Below are positions 12,966 through 40,281 of a stretch of DNA of 41,039 bases, piece after piece. Positions within the stretch are counted from its first letter, which is position 1; each line of letters opens with the position of its first letter. The notes beneath the pieces are model-generated. The model was not told the DNA's origin. It saw only the letters and a program-made list of their open reading frames with translations, and made no database searches. Origin of the DNA: Akkermansiaceae bacterium (GTDB lineage: Bacteria > Verrucomicrobiota > Verrucomicrobiia > Verrucomicrobiales > Akkermansiaceae); the NCBI GenBank assembly GCA_028822695.1, contig JAPKDA010000012.1, positions 1 to 41,039 on the forward strand, written 5' to 3'. The translations under genes were made by a program, and so were the position numbers.

Positions 12966-13934
12966 CTAGCTCCGATTCAAAATCGCCCTGATGTCTTTTT
13001 CCAAGCGATTTTCCACCGCCGGAGCTGATTTCGGGGTCGGAGCTACTCCGCTCCCCTGGGTGAAAATCACCGGAATGTTCCGCTCCGGGATCAAATTGAT
13101 ACGTTCCATCTGCCGCTGTGTTTCACGCGAATGCCGCTCCAGCACCACTAAATCTTTCAACTGCCGCTCGTGATCATACATCCCAAAGGTCACCACCGTC
13201 CCCTCCGTCGTTGCCGCCACCAATGAATAATCATTCTGCACCCCCACCACCGCCAGGCCCCAGGGAACCTCCGAAAGCATGTGCCGACTCAGTCGCACCA
13301 GATGCAAAGCCCGCTCCGCCTCACGATGACGCATCCGCGTTCCGATCTCAAAATCTCCGACCTCACCATCCATCAGCATCAATGCCGGCAAGCGCTTCGT
13401 CCCATCCACCCACCATGGCTCACAAGCGAAAACCACACCCCCTTTGTCCACCAACAATCCACGCTCCACATCCCGCGCCACGATCCCGAGCCCGCGACAC
13501 TCCAACCACGCAATCGGTTCCCGCTCCTTGATGTCCACTTTCAAGGTCCCCGGCAAACGCCGACTGACATCAATATCGAGAATCCCCGGATACGCTTCCA
13601 ACTTCTTGCGCACATCACTCAAAGTCACCGAAAACACACTGCCCGCCGGATCTACTCCCGTCACCCGCACAAAGTCTTCCACTCCCATCCGGCCATTCGT
13701 CCGCAACTCAATCGCCTCCAAACGAAATTCCTCATTCTCAATAAGCGCCTTCCGCAATCCCACCTTCACTCCCCAACCAACTCCCACCAACAAACCCGCC
13801 AGCACCAAAAACTTCACGCCCTTCCCAAACACCTTCAAGCAGGTGAAACCAAAGATCCGTGGTGAATTCACTTTCAGGTGCAACTGCCGTGTGTTGCGCC
13901 TGTTCTTCACTTTGGATGTTTTACGTCTCAGCAT
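12966..13934 (-). CDS. ftsQ: Cell division protein FtsQ/DivIB
   Basis: Bitopic divisome protein that bridges early and late division proteins. 322 residues: a strongly basic cytoplasmic start (MLRRKTSKVKNRRNTR), one membrane helix (VKFLVLAGLLVGVGWGVKV), a POTRA domain (RLEAIELRTNGRMGVEDFVRVTG, ending in PGTLKVDIKEREPIAW) and the FtsQ beta domain. The C-terminal ~40 residues (TQGSGVAPTPKSAPAVEN...) look flexible. It overlaps the end of ddl by 14 bp, indicating coupled translation. Confidence 0.92.
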   Translation of the reverse strand: MLRRKTSKVKNRRNTRQLHLKVNSPRIFGFTCLKVFGKGVKFLVLAGLLVGVGWGVKVGLRKALIENEEFRLEAIELRTNGRMGVEDFVRVTGVDPAGSVFSVTLSDVRKKLEAYPGILDIDVSRRLPGTLKVDIKEREPIAWLECRGLGIVARDVERGLLVDKGGVVFACEPWWVDGTKRLPALMLMDGEVGDFEIGTRMRHREAERALHLVRLSRHMLSEVPWGLAVVGVQNDYSLVAATTEGTVVTFGMYDHERQLKDLVVLERHSRETQRQMERINLIPERNIPVIFTQGSGVAPTPKSAPAVENRLEKDIRAILNRS

Positions 13935-14865
13935 CGGTCCCTCTCAAGTTTAACGATAGTTCAGCAATCCTCCGACACAGAGCCCCAAAATCGTATCCCG
14001 GCTCCGCCGCCGCCGCCGCTTTCGGCAACAGGCTACTCGCGGTCATTCCTGGAATAGTATTGGCTTCTAATATATAAGGATTGCTTAAGGAATCTAGCAG
14101 GACATCCACCCGCGAGTAAACCTCAATCTCTAAGGCTTTGTGCGCTTTTTGTGCCGCCTCCTGCACCACCCGAGTCTCCTCCGCCGTCAAATCGGCCGGA
14201 CAGATATACTGACTCCCCACCTCCTGCCCGCTCAACCACGGATACTTGGTGCTCATATCATACCAACCATCCTCCGGCGGAATGATCTCCACCACCGGAA
14301 AGACCTCGTCACCGATGATCGCCACCGTTAACTCCCGCCCTTCCACAAACTGCTCCACCAAAACATCATCGCCGTATTTTGCCGCATCGCCCATAGCCGC
14401 CTCAGCCTCCCCCGCGTCCTTCACGATGTGAATTCCCACGCTCGATCCCTCCCTCGGCGGCTTCACCACATAGGGCAAGGCCATTGTCGGCATCGTCACC
14501 CCGCCGGAAACATCCACCGTCTCCGACTCCGGCGTCGGCACCCCCGCCGCCACAAACTTTGCTTTGCTCAACACCTTGTCAAAAGTCACCCGACTCGTCG
14601 CTTCCCCCGCCCCGGTGTATGGAATCCCGAGCTTTTCCAAATACGCCTGCAACTCCCCATCTTCCCCAAAGGTCCCGTGGATCGCGTTAAAGGCCAGCCC
14701 TGTCCCTTCCGGCAAGATCGGTTCCCGGTCTTTCACCTCCACCCCCACCGCATTCAATCCCTCCACCAAAAGCGCCTCCAACACCGCCTTCCCCGAAGCC
14801 AGAGAAACCTCCCGCTCCGATCCCGGCCCACCCATCAACACTGCAATCAATACCGTCTCGTCCAT
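13921..14865 (-). CDS. ddl: D-alanine-D-alanine ligase
   Basis: ATP-grasp enzyme joining two D-Ala for the peptidoglycan stem peptide. About 314 residues from the ATG at 14865; another ATG two codons upstream (14871) is equally possible. Seen: VLMGGPGSEREVSLASGKAV (Gly-rich N-terminal motif), FGEDGELQAYLEKLGIPYTG, the ATP-grasp VVKPPREGSSVGI, EQFVEGRELTVAI, and the metal/substrate site YILEANTIPGMT. The frame is open up to 15063 but no similarity is expected there. It is the first gene after the opposite-strand transporter, so ddl-ftsQ-ftsA-ftsZ probably needs its own promoter in 14866-15111. Confidence 0.95.
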   Translation of the reverse strand: MDETVLIAVLMGGPGSEREVSLASGKAVLEALLVEGLNAVGVEVKDREPILPEGTGLAFNAIHGTFGEDGELQAYLEKLGIPYTGAGEATSRVTFDKVLSKAKFVAAGVPTPESETVDVSGGVTMPTMALPYVVKPPREGSSVGIHIVKDAGEAEAAMGDAAKYGDDVLVEQFVEGRELTVAIIGDEVFPVVEIIPPEDGWYDMSTKYPWLSGQEVGSQYICPADLTAEETRVVQEAAQKAHKALEIEVYSRVDVLLDSLSNPYILEANTIPGMTASSLLPKAAAAAEPGYDFGALCRRIAELSLNLRGTDAET

Positions 14866-14922
14866 CACCATTATCAGATTAAGAAGCGTCCCCCACCTCG
14901 TCCAGCGCTTAAAAAGTGGCGT

Positions 14923-14970
14923 GACCGTCTCGGTCGCAGGCCTCCCCCGTGGCCTGACCGTCCCCCGGTC
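14923..14970. repeat. Cluster of three short-loop hairpins upstream of ddl
   Basis: GACCG-tct-CGGTC (14923-14935), CAGGCC/GGCCTG with an 8-base loop (14937-14956) and GACCG-tcccc-CGGTC (14956-14970) follow each other directly. This is the same style of compact hairpins as at 8841 and 35126. It lies in the ddl upstream region, 58 bp from the start codon, so it would be in or near the 5' leader. Confidence 0.5.
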
Positions 14971-14981
14971 ATGATCAAAAC

Positions 14982-15003
14982 CCCTCCTCGCCCCAGCGAG
15001 CAA
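14982..15003 (+). repeat. 22-bp direct repeat, left of the transporter gene
   Basis: The 22 bases around CTCCTCGCCCCAGCGAGCAA recur at 15997-16018 with one change (G to A). Each copy contains a small CTCG/CGAG inverted repeat, and both are preceded by gatcaa. The pair brackets the opposite-strand transporter gene inside the dcw cluster. Confidence 0.65.
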
Positions 15004-15111
15004 GCTCCCTCTCCCTTGGATCTTGGTCATTCCTTGTTCGACAATAGACATTCCTCCCCTCATTCAACACCCCCCTTCTCCCCAATAACGGATCACCGAT
15101 AACTTCCCCCC

Positions 15112-15975
15112 ATGTCCGGCGCCATCTACCTCCCCCTCCTCGCCGCCCTCCTCCACCCCATCCTCGGCTGGGCCATCCAGTCCGCCACCAAACGCGGCGT
15201 CTCCCTCCTCCTCATCGCCGGCATCTGCAACATCGTCACCGGCATCGTCGTCCTCACCTGGAAACGTCCCCCCGGCCCCCTCACTCAACTCTCCCCCCAC
15301 GACTGGATCGCCCTCGCCAACGGCTTCCTCTTTTTCTTCGGCCAGTGGTTCTCCATTCTCTCCCTCCGCAACGGTCACCTCGCCGTCCACTCCTCCGCCC
15401 TCGGCGCAAAGATTCTCATCGTCGCCCTCCTCTCCATCGGCTTCGGTCTCGAACCCGCCCGACCGTTCCTCCTCCTCGCCGTCGTCGTCGCCATCTTCGC
15501 CGTCTTCCTCGTCGCCGGCGCCAGCCTCGCCGGATGGCGCGCCCACCGCCGCACCGTCGGACTCACCCTCATCGCCTGCCTCTTCTTCGGCACCAACGAC
15601 TACCTCACCGGCCAATTCGGCGGGACCGTCGGCACAGCCCGCTGGCTCGGACTCATGCTCGGCACCTCCGCCACCCTGTCCCTCTTCCTCGTCGCCAGCC
15701 GCGCCAAACAATTCGCCGACCTCACCCGCAACCGCGGCGCCTTCTCCTTCGTCCTCCTCGCCGGACTCATGCTCGGCATCCAAACCGTCTTGGTAAACAT
15801 CGCCTTCTCCGAGTACGCCCAACCCACTCTCTCCAACGTCGCCTACGCCTCCCGCGGCGTCATCGCCGTCATCGCCCTCGCCATCTTCGGCGCCGCCGCC
15901 GGTAAAGAATACTGGGGCCGCCGCATCACCGGCTCCTTCCTCATGATCGCCGCCCTCTGGCTGGCCTTAATGTGA
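15112..15975 (+). CDS. DMT-superfamily (EamA-like) membrane transporter
   Basis: Predicted inner-membrane transporter of 287 residues with about ten hydrophobic helices arranged as two repeats of five, as in drug/metabolite transporters. The helices are seen for example in LLIAGICNIVTGIVVL, LLLAVVVAIFAVFLVAG and VIAVIALAIFGAAAG; SEYAQPTLSNVAYASRGV resembles the conserved end of the EamA domain. The substrate is unknown; amino acids, nucleosides or cell wall precursors are possible. It stands alone on the + strand between murC-murB and ddl, both on the - strand, divergent from ddl and convergent with murC-murB. With the 22-bp direct repeats on both sides this looks like an insertion into the dcw cluster. 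Confidence 0.75.
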   Translation: MSGAIYLPLLAALLHPILGWAIQSATKRGVSLLLIAGICNIVTGIVVLTWKRPPGPLTQLSPHDWIALANGFLFFFGQWFSILSLRNGHLAVHSSALGAKILIVALLSIGFGLEPARPFLLLAVVVAIFAVFLVAGASLAGWRAHRRTVGLTLIACLFFGTNDYLTGQFGGTVGTARWLGLMLGTSATLSLFLVASRAKQFADLTRNRGAFSFVLLAGLMLGIQTVLVNIAFSEYAQPTLSNVAYASRGVIAVIALAIFGAAAGKEYWGRRITGSFLMIAALWLALM

Positions 15976-15996
15976 CGTGATTCGTTTCGATCAATT

Positions 15997-16018
15997 CCCT
16001 CCTCGCCCCAACGAGCAA
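15997..16018 (+). repeat. 22-bp direct repeat, right of the transporter gene
   Basis: Second copy of the repeat at 14982-15003, one mismatch. It lies between the transporter stop and the convergent murC-murB stop, and its CTCG/CGAG core could also be a weak hairpin. Confidence 0.65.
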
Positions 16019-16033
16019 TTCCCCAAACCCCCC

Positions 16034-18334
16034 TTAAAACACCACCTCGTCTTCCCCCAAAATCTGCACCTCCGTCTCCAAAGTCACCCCGCGCTCTTCC
16101 AAGGCCTTCTTCTGAATCTCCTCAATCAACCCCTGCACATCCTTCGCCGTCGCCTTCCCCCGGTTCACGATGAAATTCCCATGCTCCGCGGAGACCCCCG
16201 CCTTCCCCACACCGCTCCCCTTCAAGCCGAGTTCATCCACCAACTGCCCCGCCCCAATCCCCTCCGGATTCTTGAAAATACATCCCGCACTCGCCGCAAT
16301 TGGCTGAGAGCTCCGCCGCTTCGCCTTCGAAGCATCCATCTCCGCGCCAATCTCCTCCGCACTCGCCGCCTTCCCTCGAAACACCACCTTCAGCGCGTAG
16401 TTCCGACGCAACTCCGGCACGTTCCGATAAAACGACTCAATCTCCTCCCGCATCCGCGTCCGCAACTCTCCGTCCTCATCCAAAAACGTGACGCTCACCA
16501 CCTGATCAAAGGTCTCCGTCCCCATCGCCCCCGCATTCATCCGTAATCCACCACCCACATTCCCCGGAATCCCCTCCATCCACTCAAACCCACCAACCCC
16601 CGCCGCCTGCGCCGCACTCGCCACCTTCTTGAAACGCACTCCCGCCCCCGCCGTCACCAAATTCCCATCCACACTCACATCCCCAAACTCTCCCTTCGCC
16701 GGATGAATCACCGCCCCGCGAATTCCTCCATCACGCACCAAGAGGTTTGATCCACGCCCCACCACCCGCACCGGAATCCCCCGCTCCTTAAAAAAGTTCA
16801 CCGCCTTCGCAAAAGCCGTCGCGGTGTGCGGCTCCACCCAATACTGCGCCGGGCCACCCACCAACATCGTCGTGTGCCGCCGCATTGGCTCATAGAGCTT
16901 CGTCTCCACGTCCTCCCCACCAAGACCCAATCGCAATTCCTCCAAGATCCGCAAATCCGCCGCCAACTTCTTCCCCGCCTCGTGCACGTTCCCCGCACCG
17001 AGCGTCAGAATCAAATCCCCCGGCTCCACCGCATTCCCCACCACGTGATGCGCCGACACCAAATTCGGCACCGAATAACAATTCGTGTCTCCATTCCTCT
17101 TCACCGCATCGACAATCGTCTCCCCGCTCACGCCCTCGATCGGCGCCTCACTCGCCGGATAAACATCCGTCACGTAAACCGCATCCGCCCCCTGCAAGGA
17201 TTCCCCAAATTCCTCCGCCAATCGCTGCGTCCGCGAAAATCGATGCGGCTGAAACAGCACAATGATCCGGCCCGGATTCAACGAACGCGCCGTCTGCAAA
17301 GTCGCCGCGATCTCCGTGGGATGATGCCCGTAGTCATCAATGATCCTGAACCGTGATGATAAATACCTGGTCTCAAATCGCCGCTTCGCCCCCGCAAAAG
17401 AACCCATCGACCGCGCCACCAGATTAAAGTCCACCCCCAGGTCATCCGCCAAAGCAATCGCCGCCAGAGCATTGAGCACATTGTGCCGCCCCGGAATCCC
17501 CAACTCCACCCGCCCGAGAAACTCCCCCTTCTTCAGCACGTCAAAGCTCACCACCCCACGCCCCTCGGAAAGGTTCGAGGCCACAAAATCGGCATCGCTC
17601 CACCCATAAGAAATCGAGTCATCCCGCTCCCCGCACAGCTCCCGCGCCGTCTCATCCTCCCCACAATAAATCACCCGTCGCGAGGTCTGGCTCAACAGCG
17701 TCCTAAACACCACCTTGATCTCGTCCAGCCCCTTGTAGAAATCCAAATGCTCCGCCTCGATGTTCAACACAATCGAGTGACTCGGACGATACAAAGCCAG
17801 CGTCCCATCACTCTCATCACCCTCCGCGACCATGTATTCACTCTCCTCTTCCCACCGCGCATTCGCCCCCAACACCGGAATCTCCGCGCCCACATAATGC
17901 GACGCCGGCTTCCCGCCCTTCCGCAACACATGCGCACACATCGCCGAGGTCGTCGTCTTCCCGTGCGTCCCCGAAATTACCACCCCCTTCTTGGTGTGCA
18001 AAATTGCCGCGAGACACTCCGCCCGACGCATCGTCGGAATCCCCTGCTCCTCCGCCGCCACCCGCGCCACGCTCTCTTTCTTGATCGCCGAGGAATACAC
18101 CACCACGTCCGCTCCTACGACGGCCTCCGCCGAATGCGGCGACGAAAATTGCAATCCCACTCCCTGCAAACGCTCAGTCTCCCCACTGGTCACCCGATCC
18201 GATCCACTCACCCGATGCCCCATCTCTATGAGAAGCAACGCCAACCCACTCATTCCCGAACCAGCCACCCCAATCATGTGCACCCGCACCGGATTGGACC
18301 GATCCAGAAGACGCTGACTCAATTCCTCAATCAT
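16034..18334 (-). CDS. murC-murB: MurC-MurB fusion: UDP-MurNAc-L-Ala ligase / UDP-MurNAc dehydrogenase
   Basis: One 766-residue protein with two consecutive peptidoglycan precursor activities. Residues 1-465 are MurC: nucleotide-binding IGVAGSGMSGLA, the ATP loop SGTHGKTTTSA (about 121-131) and the MurC-specific DDYGHHPTEI (333-342). Residues ~478-766 are MurB, the FAD enzyme that reduces UDP-GlcNAc-enolpyruvate: MRRHTTMLVGGPAQYW, GRGSNLLVRDGG, GIPGNVGGGLRMNAGAMG, and GCIFKNP (684-690), where the usual catalytic Ser is Cys685. The MurB product is the MurC substrate, so the fusion may favour channelling. The start overlaps the end of murG by 4 bp. Confidence 0.95.
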   Translation of the reverse strand: MIEELSQRLLDRSNPVRVHMIGVAGSGMSGLALLLIEMGHRVSGSDRVTSGETERLQGVGLQFSSPHSAEAVVGADVVVYSSAIKKESVARVAAEEQGIPTMRRAECLAAILHTKKGVVISGTHGKTTTSAMCAHVLRKGGKPASHYVGAEIPVLGANARWEEESEYMVAEGDESDGTLALYRPSHSIVLNIEAEHLDFYKGLDEIKVVFRTLLSQTSRRVIYCGEDETARELCGERDDSISYGWSDADFVASNLSEGRGVVSFDVLKKGEFLGRVELGIPGRHNVLNALAAIALADDLGVDFNLVARSMGSFAGAKRRFETRYLSSRFRIIDDYGHHPTEIAATLQTARSLNPGRIIVLFQPHRFSRTQRLAEEFGESLQGADAVYVTDVYPASEAPIEGVSGETIVDAVKRNGDTNCYSVPNLVSAHHVVGNAVEPGDLILTLGAGNVHEAGKKLAADLRILEELRLGLGGEDVETKLYEPMRRHTTMLVGGPAQYWVEPHTATAFAKAVNFFKERGIPVRVVGRGSNLLVRDGGIRGAVIHPAKGEFGDVSVDGNLVTAGAGVRFKKVASAAQAAGVGGFEWMEGIPGNVGGGLRMNAGAMGTETFDQVVSVTFLDEDGELRTRMREEIESFYRNVPELRRNYALKVVFRGKAASAEEIGAEMDASKAKRRSSQPIAASAGCIFKNPEGIGAGQLVDELGLKGSGVGKAGVSAEHGNFIVNRGKATAKDVQGLIEEIQKKALEERGVTLETEVQILGEDEVVF

Positions 18335-19425
18335 CCCTTCATCCCCCCTTCAATCACATCACAAATCCGCGCGGCTGCATCATCCACCGCCATGCTCCGC
18401 ATCCCATCGATCATCGAGGCCATCTTCACCTGATCAGAAACCAAACCCTTCACCTCCACCGCCAAGCTCGCCCCACTCAAATCCTTTTCCGCCATCAACA
18501 CCGCCCCGCCACCAGCAACAAAGGCATCCGCATTCTTCGTCTGGTGATCGTCCGCCGCATAAGGATACGGAACCAACACCCCCGGCAATCCCACCCGCGA
18601 CAACTCCGTCAAACTCGAGGCACCCGACCGGCAAACCACCAGGTCCGCTGCCGCATACGCCGCCGGCATGTCGTCACAGAAAGCGGTGACCACATGATGC
18701 TCCAATCCCTCCGCCTCCTTGCTCACCCGATCAAAATCTCCGCGACCAGCCACGTGCAACCACTGCACATCCGCCCCGATCTCCTTGCTCGCTTCGAGCA
18801 CAATCGTATTCAACCCCTGCGCCCCCTGACTTCCCCCCACCACCAGCACCACCGGACGCCCCGCATCCATACCGAACTTCTGCAGCGCATCATACTTCGT
18901 CGGCAAACTCAGCATCTCGCTCCGCACCGGAGTCCCGGTCACCTCGGTCTCCCTCCCCTTGAAATACTGCACCGCCGCCTCCAACCCCAACAGGGTCTTC
19001 GTGCAAAACCTCCCCGTCAGCCGGTTCGACTTCCCGGGCAGCGCATTGGAGTCATGCACGTAAGTCGGCAAACCCAGCCTGTGCCCCGCATACACCGGCG
19101 GCAACGAGGTAAACCCGCCCATCCCGATCACTGCATCCGCCCTCCGAGCCACCAGCATCGCCTTGCATCGCCGGACCGTCTTCCAAAGACGAAGCAAAAA
19201 CGGCAACATCTTCGGTGACAAGGTCGGCGGTTTGGCGATCGCCGGGATCACCTTGAAATCCAATCCCGCATACTTCGCCGAGGCCTCCGCATCGACCTTC
19301 TTCTCAGAAATCAACAAGAGCACCTCGTGCCCCCGCCGTTGCAATTCCTCCGCAACAGCGATTCCAGGAAACAAATGCCCCCCGGTCCCCCCACAGGCAA
19401 TCACTACAGTCCGTTCTCTTCCCAC
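18331..19425 (-). CDS. murG: UDP-GlcNAc:lipid I transferase MurG
   Basis: Peripheral membrane glycosyltransferase adding GlcNAc to lipid I to give lipid II. 364 residues, normal length. Seen: ACGGTGGHLFPGIAVAEEL (G-loop 1), MGGFTSLPPVYAG, the second loop VVGGSQGAQGLN, and the UDP-GlcNAc site CRSGASSLTELSRVGLPGVLVPYPYAADDHQTKNA. It follows ftsW after 4 bp and overlaps murC-murB by 4 bp. Confidence 0.97.
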   Translation of the reverse strand: MGRERTVVIACGGTGGHLFPGIAVAEELQRRGHEVLLLISEKKVDAEASAKYAGLDFKVIPAIAKPPTLSPKMLPFLLRLWKTVRRCKAMLVARRADAVIGMGGFTSLPPVYAGHRLGLPTYVHDSNALPGKSNRLTGRFCTKTLLGLEAAVQYFKGRETEVTGTPVRSEMLSLPTKYDALQKFGMDAGRPVVLVVGGSQGAQGLNTIVLEASKEIGADVQWLHVAGRGDFDRVSKEAEGLEHHVVTAFCDDMPAAYAAADLVVCRSGASSLTELSRVGLPGVLVPYPYAADDHQTKNADAFVAGGGAVLMAEKDLSGASLAVEVKGLVSDQVKMASMIDGMRSMAVDDAAARICDVIEGGMKG

Positions 19426-35261: not shown

Positions 35262-37565
35262 TTAGTCGCTCAGCGAGTAGCTCTTCTCTTCGGCAGGAGG
35301 ATCCTGTTTCTCTCCGCGAGGCACGCGACCTCCGCTGCGACGACCACCACCACCGCGGTTGTCATCACCACCACCGCGATTGTCATCACCGCCACGGCCA
35401 CGACCGCCGCCGCCGCCGCCACCGCCGCGACGATCATCATCGCCGCCACCGCTGTCGCCTTCGCTGTCCTTGCTCAGAGCCTTGATGCTCATCTTCACGC
35501 GACCTTTTTCGTCAACCCCGATGCACTCTGCAGTCACCACGTCGCCGGTCTTCACCACGTCTTCCGTGTTGTCAACGCGTCGGTTGGCGAGCTCGGAGAT
35601 GTGAATGAGGCCGTCCTTGCCGGGCAGCACTTCCATGAAGGCACCAAAGGCCATCGTGTTCACGATCTTGCCGGTGTATTCCTTGCCGACTTCGATCTCC
35701 GCGAACATGTTCTCGATCATCTCCTTGGCGCGCTCCAACGACTCCTTCTTCGAAGCGTAGATGTGCACGGTGCCGTCGTCCTCGATGTTGAGGTCGGCGC
35801 CCGACTCGGCCTGAATCGCTTTGATGTTCTTTCCGCCAGGCCCAATAAGCTCACCGATGCGATCAGGATTGATCTTCACGGTCTCGATGCGTGGAGCGTG
35901 TTCGCTCAGGGCACCAGGATCGGTGATCGATGCAGCCATCACTTCCAGCACCTTCGTGCGGGCTTCCTTGGCAATATGCACCGCCTCAGCGAGAATATTG
36001 AGTGGAAGGCCGGGAAGCTTGAGGTCCAACTGGAAGCCGGTAACCCCTTCGCTGGTGCCACAGAGTTTGAAGTCCATGTCGCCGTAGAAGTCCTCACTAC
36101 CGATGATATCGAGCAGGGTCTTGTATTCCTTGATCGATCCGTCGTCGTTCATCTCGGTCACGAGACCAACCGCGATTCCACCCACTGGGCGAATCAACGG
36201 CACGCCGGCGTGCAAGAGGCTCATGGTGCCGGAACAAACCGTCGCCATTGAACTCGAACCGTTCGACTCGAGAACCTCGGAGGTCACACGCATCGCATAC
36301 GGGAAGTCTTCCTCAGCGGGAATCACCGGAGCGATGGAACGCTCGGCAAGTGCACCGTGACCAATCTCGCGGCGGTTCAAACCACCGAAGCGGCCTGTCT
36401 CACCAACCGAGAAGGGCGGGAAGTTGTAGTGGAGGATGAAGCGCTTGCTGTCCTCGCCACCGGCGTAGTTGTCAAAATATTGACGCTCGTCGGCAGGAGC
36501 CAAGGTCGTGGTTCCCAATGCTTGGGTTTCACCCCGTGCAAAGAGAGCCGAACCGTGCACCCGTGGGAGAAGTCCCACTTCACCGTAGAGCTCACGAAGA
36601 TCCCCTGGCGCCCGGCCATCGGCACGGACACCTTTTTCCATGATGCTCAGGCGGAAGGCCTTCTTCTGAATGTATTCGAAGACCTGCTCGATCTCGAAGC
36701 CGGTCGTGTCGGGAGCGCGTTCCTTGATCGCTGCCTCCACTTCGTTGCGGAGGGCACCAACCTTCTTGGCGCGCTCGACCTTGCTGGCCGCGTAGATAGC
36801 GTCCTCGATCCGGTCGCCTGCGATCTCGTAACCGATGGCAAGCAAATCGTCCTTGGCCACCGTCACAGTGTAGTCACGCTTTTCCTTGCCGGCCAACTTG
36901 ACCAACTCTTCCTGGGCCTCGACCAATTGGGTCACGGCCTTCTGGCCAGCCTCGAGAGCTTTGATAAACTCGTCTTCGGGAATTTCGTCGCCCGCACCTT
37001 CAACCATGATCACGTCGGTCTTGTTACCAACGTAAACCAAGTCGAGGTCGCTTCCTTCGCGCTCCTCAAAGGTCGGGTTGATGACAAACTCGCCGTCGAC
37101 CCGGCCAACACGCACAGCACCGATCGGTCCTGCAAACGGGATGTCGGAAACCGCGAGGGCCGCCGAAGCACCGTTCATGGACAAAATGTCCGCGTCGTTG
37201 ACTGCATCCGCACTCAGCATGAGCGCGATGATCTGCGTGTCATAAAGGTAACCTTTCGGGAACAACGGACGCAATGGGCGGTCCGTCATCCGGCAGGTGA
37301 GAATCTCTTTTTCGGTCGGACGTCCTTCACGCTTGAAGTAGCCGCCGGGGAACGTTCCAGCCGCTGAGGCCCGCTCCTTGTATTCCACCGAGAGAGGGAA
37401 CCATGTCTGTCCGTCCCTGATTTTGGTTGCGGAGACCGCGGTCACGAGAACGGTGGTCTCACCACTGCTCACGACTACTGCGCCGTCTGCCAATCGTGCC
37501 AACTTACCAGTTTCTATGGTAATTGGATTTGAGCCAACTTGGCTCGTTACTTTGTGTGTACTCAT
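35262..37565 (-). CDS. pnp: Polynucleotide phosphorylase (PNPase) with Gly/Arg-rich tail
   Basis: Phosphorolytic 3'-5' exoribonuclease, core of the RNA degradosome. 767 residues. Seen: first RNase PH domain (GSNPITIETGKLARLADGAV, LSVEYKERASAAGTFPGG), helical linker, second RNase PH domain (RADGRAPGDLRELYGEVGLLPRVHGSALF, GERS-like GAL + AERSIAPVIP), the KH domain (IGELIGPGGKNIKAIQ) and S1 domain (GKEYTGKIVNTMAFGAFMEVLPGKDGLIHISE). The last ~66 residues are a low-complexity tail of Gly, Arg and Asp with tandem GGDDNRG units, ending KSYSLSD. Such RGG-like tails bind RNA or partners; most PNPases end soon after S1. Upstream is rpsO, the usual partner. Confidence 0.97.
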   Translation of the reverse strand: MSTHKVTSQVGSNPITIETGKLARLADGAVVVSSGETTVLVTAVSATKIRDGQTWFPLSVEYKERASAAGTFPGGYFKREGRPTEKEILTCRMTDRPLRPLFPKGYLYDTQIIALMLSADAVNDADILSMNGASAALAVSDIPFAGPIGAVRVGRVDGEFVINPTFEEREGSDLDLVYVGNKTDVIMVEGAGDEIPEDEFIKALEAGQKAVTQLVEAQEELVKLAGKEKRDYTVTVAKDDLLAIGYEIAGDRIEDAIYAASKVERAKKVGALRNEVEAAIKERAPDTTGFEIEQVFEYIQKKAFRLSIMEKGVRADGRAPGDLRELYGEVGLLPRVHGSALFARGETQALGTTTLAPADERQYFDNYAGGEDSKRFILHYNFPPFSVGETGRFGGLNRREIGHGALAERSIAPVIPAEEDFPYAMRVTSEVLESNGSSSMATVCSGTMSLLHAGVPLIRPVGGIAVGLVTEMNDDGSIKEYKTLLDIIGSEDFYGDMDFKLCGTSEGVTGFQLDLKLPGLPLNILAEAVHIAKEARTKVLEVMAASITDPGALSEHAPRIETVKINPDRIGELIGPGGKNIKAIQAESGADLNIEDDGTVHIYASKKESLERAKEMIENMFAEIEVGKEYTGKIVNTMAFGAFMEVLPGKDGLIHISELANRRVDNTEDVVKTGDVVTAECIGVDEKGRVKMSIKALSKDSEGDSGGGDDDRRGGGGGGGGRGRGGDDNRGGGDDNRGGGGRRSGGRVPRGEKQDPPAEEKSYSLSD

Positions 37566-38460: not shown

Positions 38461-39576
38461 CTAGCCCACCGGCGGGTGCGCCTTCAGAAACTCGATCACC
38501 TTCTCCCCCGAATTCGTCAGCAACAGCGAGTCCGCATACGCCTTCCCCGCCGCCTGACGACTCAAACAATCGAAGACCCCCGTCTTCTCCCCGAAGTGCT
38601 CCTTCCCAAGGAACGCCATCGGACTGACCACCCCAAAAGTCTGATAGTGATTTTGCGTCGCGTCTTGGAAAACCTCCTGCGTCGTCCCCGCGCTCCCCGG
38701 CGCAAACACAATCCCATGTGCCGCAATGGTCAGCAATCCATCCTCCCGCAGGCTGTTTGAGAAGTATTTGGCGATGTGCACCGAGAACAAATTTCCCGGC
38801 TCGTGACCGTAAAACCATGTCGGCACCGCCAAACTCGCTTGCCCGTGCGGATACATGTCCAATACCTCCTGCGCCGCCTCCATGTAGCCCGGGTCTGTAT
38901 AAACCTCCGAACGCCCCAAGATCAGAAGTGCGCTTTCCATCTCCTTGTTTGAGACATCCGCCAAATAGGCACCCAGATTCGCCGCCTCCATGATCCCCGG
39001 CCCCCCACCTGTCGCCACAAAATATCCATCCCGCGTCAACTGCTGCGCCATCCGCGCCACCTTCCAGTAATAGGGATCCGTCCGCGGAGTCCCATGTCCC
39101 CCCATCAGTCCCACTACTTTCTTCCTCCCCGATCGATCCGTCCTCCCCTCCAGCAAATCATGCATGGCGTCTTCAATGGCATGATCATGCAATCTCTGCG
39201 CCAAGGCATCGATCACACTCGGCCGATCCTTCCCCGCACCCACAAAATAATCGTAGATCTTCTTGTCCACACTCTGATCCACCAAGGGAGTCCACCCCTC
39301 CATCAACTCGGCCCGCGAGTACAAACGTGGCCGATACGGATCAAAGGGCAGATCACTAAAGCCCGGGAACACCATCGCCCCCTTCGCCAACAAATCCGCA
39401 ATCTCCACTCCGTCCGGAAACCCACACCCCAGAAAAATTGCTCCCTCACACTCCACCTCGTCCCAATCCACTCCCAGCTTTCGCAAATCCAAGCCCTGCA
39501 CCACCGCATGCCCCAGCTGACCCTCGCTCCGACAAAGCGCGGCTACCGAATCCAATTCTCTCACATAGCTGCTCAT
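38461..39576 (-). CDS. LOG-family (TIGR00730-like) nucleotide-binding protein
   Basis: 371-residue cytoplasmic protein with a Rossmann-type lysine-decarboxylase-like fold. Seen: KVVGLMGGHGTPRTDPYYWKVA, TGGGPGIMEAANLGAYLADVSN (the GGGxGxM nucleotide site), and FAPGSAGTTQEVFQDATQ, a variant of the PGGxGTxxE motif of this family. It is longer than cytokinin-activating LOG enzymes (~200), with an extra N-terminal ~150-residue domain, so nucleotide 5'-monophosphate hydrolysis is possible but unproven. It overlaps the upstream hpt gene by 4 bp. Confidence 0.8.
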   Translation of the reverse strand: MSSYVRELDSVAALCRSEGQLGHAVVQGLDLRKLGVDWDEVECEGAIFLGCGFPDGVEIADLLAKGAMVFPGFSDLPFDPYRPRLYSRAELMEGWTPLVDQSVDKKIYDYFVGAGKDRPSVIDALAQRLHDHAIEDAMHDLLEGRTDRSGRKKVVGLMGGHGTPRTDPYYWKVARMAQQLTRDGYFVATGGGPGIMEAANLGAYLADVSNKEMESALLILGRSEVYTDPGYMEAAQEVLDMYPHGQASLAVPTWFYGHEPGNLFSVHIAKYFSNSLREDGLLTIAAHGIVFAPGSAGTTQEVFQDATQNHYQTFGVVSPMAFLGKEHFGEKTGVFDCLSRQAAGKAYADSLLLTNSGEKVIEFLKAHPPVG

Positions 39577-40118
39577 AATTCCTCCTTAATGCACTCCTCT
39601 TTCAACACGCCGACATAGGGCAAATTTCGATAAAGCCCCCGATAGTCGAGTCCATACCCTACCACAAACTCATCGCCGATGACAAACCCGGTGTAATCCG
39701 CCTCCACCTCCGTCGCCCGCTCCTTGTCTTTCGACAACAACACACAGCTCCGAACCATCTCCGCCCCTTGCTCCACCAACTTCTTCTTCACCGCAATCAG
39801 AGTCCGACCGGTGTCGAGAATGTCATCAATCACCAAGACCTGTTCACCCGCCACGTCCGGCAACTTGTGATCGAGAAAGTCCACCTGACCGGAACTCTCC
39901 GTCCCCCCATGATAACTCGACACATTCAAGGTCTCGATCTGCAAAGGCACCTGCATCCGCCGCAACAAGTCCGCCGCAAAAACCAAGGCCCCCTTCAGAA
40001 TCACGATCGCCACAAACTCACGCCCCCCGAAGTCCTCCATGACCTTCTCCGCCACCGCATCCAGGCGCTTCTCAATCACCTGCTCATCAACCAGTACCTT
40101 TGCGACGTCATCGTGCAC
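39573..40118 (-). CDS. hpt: Hypoxanthine phosphoribosyltransferase
   Basis: Purine salvage enzyme making IMP/GMP from hypoxanthine/guanine and PRPP. About 181 residues from the GTG at 40118, matching the usual length and start (HDDVAKVLVDEQVIEKRL). ATGs at 40184, 40196 and 40205 would add 22-29 residues without family-like sequence. Seen: VAIVILKGALVFAADLLRR, the PRPP loop VLVIDDILDTGRTL, and the C-terminal FVVGYGLDYRGLYRNLPYVGVL with the base-binding Asp-Tyr. It overlaps the LOG gene as ATGA, suggesting a nucleotide salvage pair. Confidence 0.92.
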   Translation of the reverse strand: MHDDVAKVLVDEQVIEKRLDAVAEKVMEDFGGREFVAIVILKGALVFAADLLRRMQVPLQIETLNVSSYHGGTESSGQVDFLDHKLPDVAGEQVLVIDDILDTGRTLIAVKKKLVEQGAEMVRSCVLLSKDKERATEVEADYTGFVIGDEFVVGYGLDYRGLYRNLPYVGVLKEECIKEEL

Positions 40119-40281
40119 AAGGCCCAGCCTAGCAATATCCTCCCACCTCTTGCAAGCTCCCCACCTCCACACCACTAAAACCATCGGGATGAGCATTGCA
40201 TGCACTTTGTAAGCGCTTCTCGAATTTACTGGCCCTCTTCAACCCCTTTTAGGGCAAGAACCGCCCCAGATAAGCCGTTGA

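Follow-up and report, generated by a model that had tools for sequence, protein, structure and literature searches.

Direct repeats around a DMT-fold transporter gene in the dcw cluster of an Akkermansiaceae bacterium are tails of a dispersed REP-type family

The dcw cluster of V. spinosum is represented in Table 1 of PMC12283558, in which ddl, ftsQ, ftsA and ftsZ have consecutive locus tags and murCB has a separate one. For repetitive elements, the closest described systems are the GTAG-tagged REPs, short palindromes that are dispersed at high copy number and, in most of the families dealt with in PMC3733652, occur as units placed close together in opposite orientation. According to the same source, the GTAG-20 REP family of Opitutus terrae is mostly GTGG-headed, and a copy lies in frame within uvrA of that organism. 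IS200/IS605 relatives are described as acting on the lagging-strand template (PMC6006769).

The stretch analyzed here (the window) comprises 41,039 nucleotides of the draft genome of an Akkermansiaceae bacterium. Similar to V. spinosum, murC and murB form a single fused open reading frame (murCB, 16034–18334, - strand; Pfam Mur_ligase, FAD_binding_4 and MurB_C), which lies upstream on the - strand of ddl, encoding D-Ala-D-Ala ligase (13921–14877, - strand; Pfam Dala_Dala_lig_N and Dala_Dala_lig_C; start set from relatives), and ddl is in a run with downstream genes that, from their sequences and position, we take to be ftsQ, ftsA and ftsZ. In V. spinosum murCB is away from ddl by locus tag (Table 1, PMC12283558), whereas here the two are near each other, kept apart by one + strand open reading frame of 287 aa (15112–15975). 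The original prediction, made from the sequence alone, had described a + strand DMT-type gene between murC-murB and ddl on the - strand, with a 22-bp sequence on both sides and gatcaa preceding each copy. These elements are all present: the 22-mers, at 14982–15003 and 15997–16018, differ by one mismatch, and gatcaa is found at 14973–14978 and 15989–15994, three and two bases away from them, respectively. The longest ddl reading frame (380 aa) can be read from 15063, with its start upstream of the left repeat. The Ddl proteins of relatives can be aligned only from about residue 31–73 of this frame, in most cases from at least residue 48; the ddl start was therefore placed at about 14877 or 14871, and the left repeat within the ddl leader. 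That the gene would force a new promoter for ddl-ftsQ-ftsA-ftsZ, as was also proposed, follows logically from this layout, but a scan of 14800–16100 revealed no sigma-70-like site.

The two 22-mers are the tail hairpins of a dispersed REP-type repeat and not insertion scars. Similarity between the flanks extends beyond the 22 bases. On the left, the ddl leader contains a REP palindrome with a GTGGC head, a 7-bp stem and a TCY loop (14916–14937, + strand), followed by a second, degenerate palindrome directly before the 22-mer (14949–14972, + strand). On the right, a palindrome overlapping the stop codon of the transporter gene (15972–15993, + strand) is a degenerate copy of the one that precedes the left 22-mer. 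Shuffled sequences reached an equal alignment to the left flank in 2/2000 cases, and to a typed consensus in 9/2000. Both flanks thus have the same layout, a palindrome and then a tail hairpin with a CTCGC/GCGAG stem, with the right palindrome much more decayed than the left. The window holds no third copy of the 22-mer at up to 3 mismatches, and 100 dinucleotide shuffles hold no match at all. In the 2.69-Mb draft genome, by contrast with the reversed control (1 place), the 22-mer matches at 8 places at up to 3 mismatches, and a looser core at 13 places (control 2). No match at up to 3 mismatches is present in the congener G001, and other relatives have seven scattered matches, none of them at murCB. 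We rejected a reading of the 22-mers as terminators or structured RNA: no terminator-like site was found in the scan of 14800–16100, folding around the 22-mers is at most slightly stronger than in shuffles (z -0.04 to -1.82), and 13900–18400 has no Rfam match. The original prediction had named a 22-mer scattered through the genome as a common terminator as evidence against itself; the scattering was seen, whereas no terminator was detected.

The palindrome itself (GTGGC head, 7-bp stem, TCY loop) occurs at 122 places in the draft genome at up to 3 mismatches (none in the reversed control), and at up to 2 mismatches there are 132 places in G001 and 68 in G026. Across contexts the repeat has a common layout: the palindrome, in some copies another, GTAAG-headed palindrome about 38 bases further along, next TCAAACCC or a similar stretch, and finally the hairpin. 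The stems of the hairpin differ among copies (CGGC/GCCG, CTCGC/GCGAG, GCGGC/GCCGC, CCCCGC/GCGGGG), and the 22-mer represents the CTCGC/GCGAG version, one of several in the genome. Of 19 tails, one of which is an unrelated match at 36152 of the window, 16 have a perfect stem of at least 4; averaged over the copies, however, the shuffle fraction is 0.36. Judged by eye, the hairpin keeps its position and its pairing while the stem varies (e.g., at loci L129, L134, L139 and L158), an assessment that rests on position and stem differences and finds no support in the shuffle test. Among the places listed (100 of 122), eight other pairs of REPs lie 0.5–2 kb apart. With a short palindrome headed by GTGG (or GTAAG), high copy number and dispersal, the window repeats look like the GTAG/GTGG-type REPs of O. 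terrae as far as these are characterized in PMC3733652, a likeness seen at the level of sequence. They differ from the families in that source in having an additional tail hairpin with a changing stem, and in keeping to one orientation with respect to strand composition rather than being arranged, as in most of those families, as close, opposite units. A copy resembling the one described for O. terrae uvrA (PMC3733652) is found near position 1501 of L134, where a REP and its tail hairpin are read in frame through a uvrA-like open reading frame of 1006 aa.

We determined the GC skew around REP copies on the strand carrying the palindrome, excluding 150 bases on either side. In bacteria generally, GC skew of this kind marks the replication strand. 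In a first set of 30 loci, reduced to 29 by removal of one duplicate, all 29 distinct copies from the window's own genome showed negative skew (mean -0.32). In a second set, made up of 20 stretches, the skew was negative for 23/24 copies; the exception is one member of two closely spaced, inverted copies on contig C88. Pooled, and with one place common to both sets, the palindrome is on the C-rich strand in 51/52 distinct copies of this genome, and the same was observed for 24/24 copies in G001, as well as for the copy upstream of ddl. With 8 G and 7 C the palindrome is close to parity, and its own composition is therefore not the cause of the bias. A second repeat unit has the same skew orientation in 8/9 cases. 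For the 22-mer core all 15 rows agree in orientation; this count carries little weight, however, since overlapping loci enter two of the places twice and the core itself is rich in C. We discarded counts of REPs against gene strand, because the codon-usage caller picked the antisense of the transporter as a gene. In 4-kb blocks from 4000 to 40000 of the window, the GC skew of the + strand is strong and constant, at about -0.19 to -0.38; codons of + strand genes end in C, those of the - strand dcw genes in G. With orientation locked to the strand, neighboring REPs will almost inevitably form direct repeats, and bracketing of a gene by direct copies is therefore weak evidence for insertion. In REP-rich, strand-locked genomes, near-identical direct repeats around a gene should not be read as insertion scars. 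A search of titles and abstracts found no paper on REP orientation relative to the replication strand; a related observation is already in print for P. fluorescens, whose REP arrays are reported to be oppositely oriented on opposite sides of the genome (PMC3116915).

To compare the junction in relatives, murCB was searched in 58 genomes, the stretches downstream of it were read, and ddl was located. The family of the window's organism (f1) accounts for 36 genomes including its own, 32 of them decidable (G001, G002 and G020 reach a contig end or offer only about 0.2–0.7 kb to read; G004 has no murCB match), and the other families of the order for 22, with 20 decidable (G039 ends with its contig, G053 has a partial murCB match). 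Directly after murCB we found ddl in 20/32 decidable f1 genomes and in 8/20 outside f1. The junction is open in the remaining 12/32 of f1, so that its interruption is nothing special: three genomes carry inserts (the window's own, one gene of about 1 kb; G032, 1.3 kb; G009, 8 kb), and nine have no ddl within the 4.3–10.2 kb read past murCB. Twelve genomes outside f1 lack ddl in the 7.2–9.0 kb past murCB, and adjacency is absent from all members of f3 (5) and f4 (6). The fillings vary: G032 has a weak match to a PIN domain, and different genes are found in G009, G026, G008 and G022. Since adjacency recurs in f1, f2 and f6, it is probably ancestral in the order, and yet the coupling is readily lost. 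ftsQ adjoins ddl in 14/14 genomes examined, which indicates that ddl-ftsQ forms a unit separate from murCB elsewhere too.

The transporter-like protein has no match above the cut-off in Pfam or NCBIfam, and its score for the EamA family (PF00892) is 10.4 bits, where 28.2 is needed. A structure model (pLDDT 82.1, built on an alignment of four sequences) matched SLC35B1, the triose-phosphate translocator, 5i20 and LicB in Foldseek with a probability of 1.00 and TM-scores of about 0.67–0.74. As modeled, the protein is a member of the DMT fold superfamily; it shares the helical fold and equal size of these transporters, but only about 14–18% identity, and it remains far below the EamA cut-off. Homologs were identified in 20/58 genomes, the own genome included (E <= 1e-5). 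In a tree of 19 rows, from which rows with fewer than 200 aligned residues or without a match in that search were excluded, the window transporter falls inside a clade of nine (support 100/100) made up of f1 genomes, two MAGs named Akkermansiaceae and one uncultured Verrucomicrobiales MAG. Identities for this clade are about 43–53%, so a distant transfer need not be invoked. Genes for ThuA and an M20 peptidase adjoin the homolog in 5/8 loci examined, and the window's dcw proteins in none of the eight. Within the own genome, the best match to ThuA (contig C122, 55%) has neither an M20 nor a transporter gene in the flanks searched. Third codon positions of the transporter gene are 82% C and 8% G, as against 61–65% C in three further large + strand genes; this extreme composition suggests that the gene is not a recent arrival from the other strand. 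In one MAG (L108, 3404–4901) the homolog adjoins a gene whose product is a 64% homolog of that of window gene 39573–40205, which here is about 24 kb away.

We consider it likely that a DMT-fold transporter gene resident in this family was moved to between murCB and ddl, a frequent break point of the dcw cluster in the family, and that the direct repeats are the tails of strand-locked REP-type elements occupying both intergenic gaps. The uninterrupted junction would be the ancestral state, the relocation would have taken place through ordinary rearrangement and not via the REPs, and the two REPs would have arrived independently. The left one probably predates the split of the two species, because G001 has a REP palindrome in the corresponding position before ddl; REP and ddl start align with 75% identity over 182 bases. 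Insertion into a coupled operon, as originally predicted, thus stands as far as the junction is concerned, being uninterrupted in many relatives, but the repeats, part of a family with 122 palindrome matches, do not mark it. Nor was an uninterrupted junction with a single 22-mer copy, which had been predicted, encountered in any relative. That the two 22-mers are target-site duplications or the ends of a transposon-like insertion would explain why near-identical copies bracket the gene exactly. We give this very little credence. Six more places match the 22-mer at up to 3 mismatches, so that it is not confined to the ends of the insert, and these dispersed copies refute target-site duplication; in addition, its similarity runs on into the repeated palindrome, no transposase lies between the copies, and the readable murCB places of relatives showed no empty site with a single copy.

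A rearrangement involving the REPs themselves deserves closer consideration. If a REP already present upstream of ddl had recombined with one carried behind the transporter gene, or been joined to it by a RAYT-type single-strand reaction, the gene would have ended up with a composite on either side, the two being direct repeats, and both flanks indeed consist of a palindrome with the same tail-hairpin version in the same orientation, with a REP upstream of ddl probably already present before the two species parted. As CTCGC/GCGAG is one of several tail versions, a common origin of both composites is conceivable, which counts against independent arrival. Direct orientation is expected in any case from strand locking, however; the right palindrome is far more decayed than the left; neither an empty nor a donor site was found, and the missing donor weighs against the relocation we favor as well; and the insert of G032, the one other interruption tested, lacks flanking direct repeats of at least 16 bases and contains just an internal tandem pair. 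REP-REP recombination is thus a possible mover of the gene, and as a full account of the locus we regard it as rather unlikely. It is still less probable, in our judgment hardly so at all, that the transporter is an ancestral or genus-wide occupant lost from other relatives. In its favor, the junction of the congener, the closest relative, falls in an assembly gap, so that for the favored relocation, too, we infer the order of events and the state before insertion; moreover, no murCB-ddl adjacency can be read in any of the three nearest genomes by MurCB (G001, G026 and the window). Against such an occupant, the transporter is found at the junction in 1/58 genomes, the window's own, and not throughout the family, G035 and G015 have a homolog elsewhere together with an adjacent murCB-ddl pair, and the murCB contig of G001 continues for 742 bases past murCB without ddl or transporter. 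About 410 bases after murCB, this contig enters an unrelated opposite-strand open frame that has no Pfam match and reaches the contig end.

Returning to the REP family as a whole, we tentatively propose, while holding it doubtful in its full extent, that copies enter or survive only when oriented one way with respect to the replication fork, as RAYT-type insertion into one exposed single strand would lead one to expect, that each copy ends in a hairpin of fixed position and conserved pairing with a variable stem, and that recombination between direct copies could excise and reinsert gene-sized segments, possibly including the transporter gene in the dcw cluster of the window. Strand locking gives a testable way into the link between replication and the spread of REPs. 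GTAG-type REPs commonly, though not universally, flank a RAYT gene of their own. The draft genome has three Y1_Tnp matches. None has the REP palindrome in the flanks searched, an apparent difference from the GTAG REPs as presented in PMC3733652, and other GTAG/GTGG palindromes lie on both sides of one of them. Separately, locus L044 (499–3060, - strand; G000:C214) contains an open reading frame of 853 aa with GcpE (IspG) matches in two stretches and a RAYT-like Y1_Tnp domain between them; GTAG/GTGG palindromes surround the Y1_Tnp part, and the transposase-like domain seems to lie in frame within ispG.
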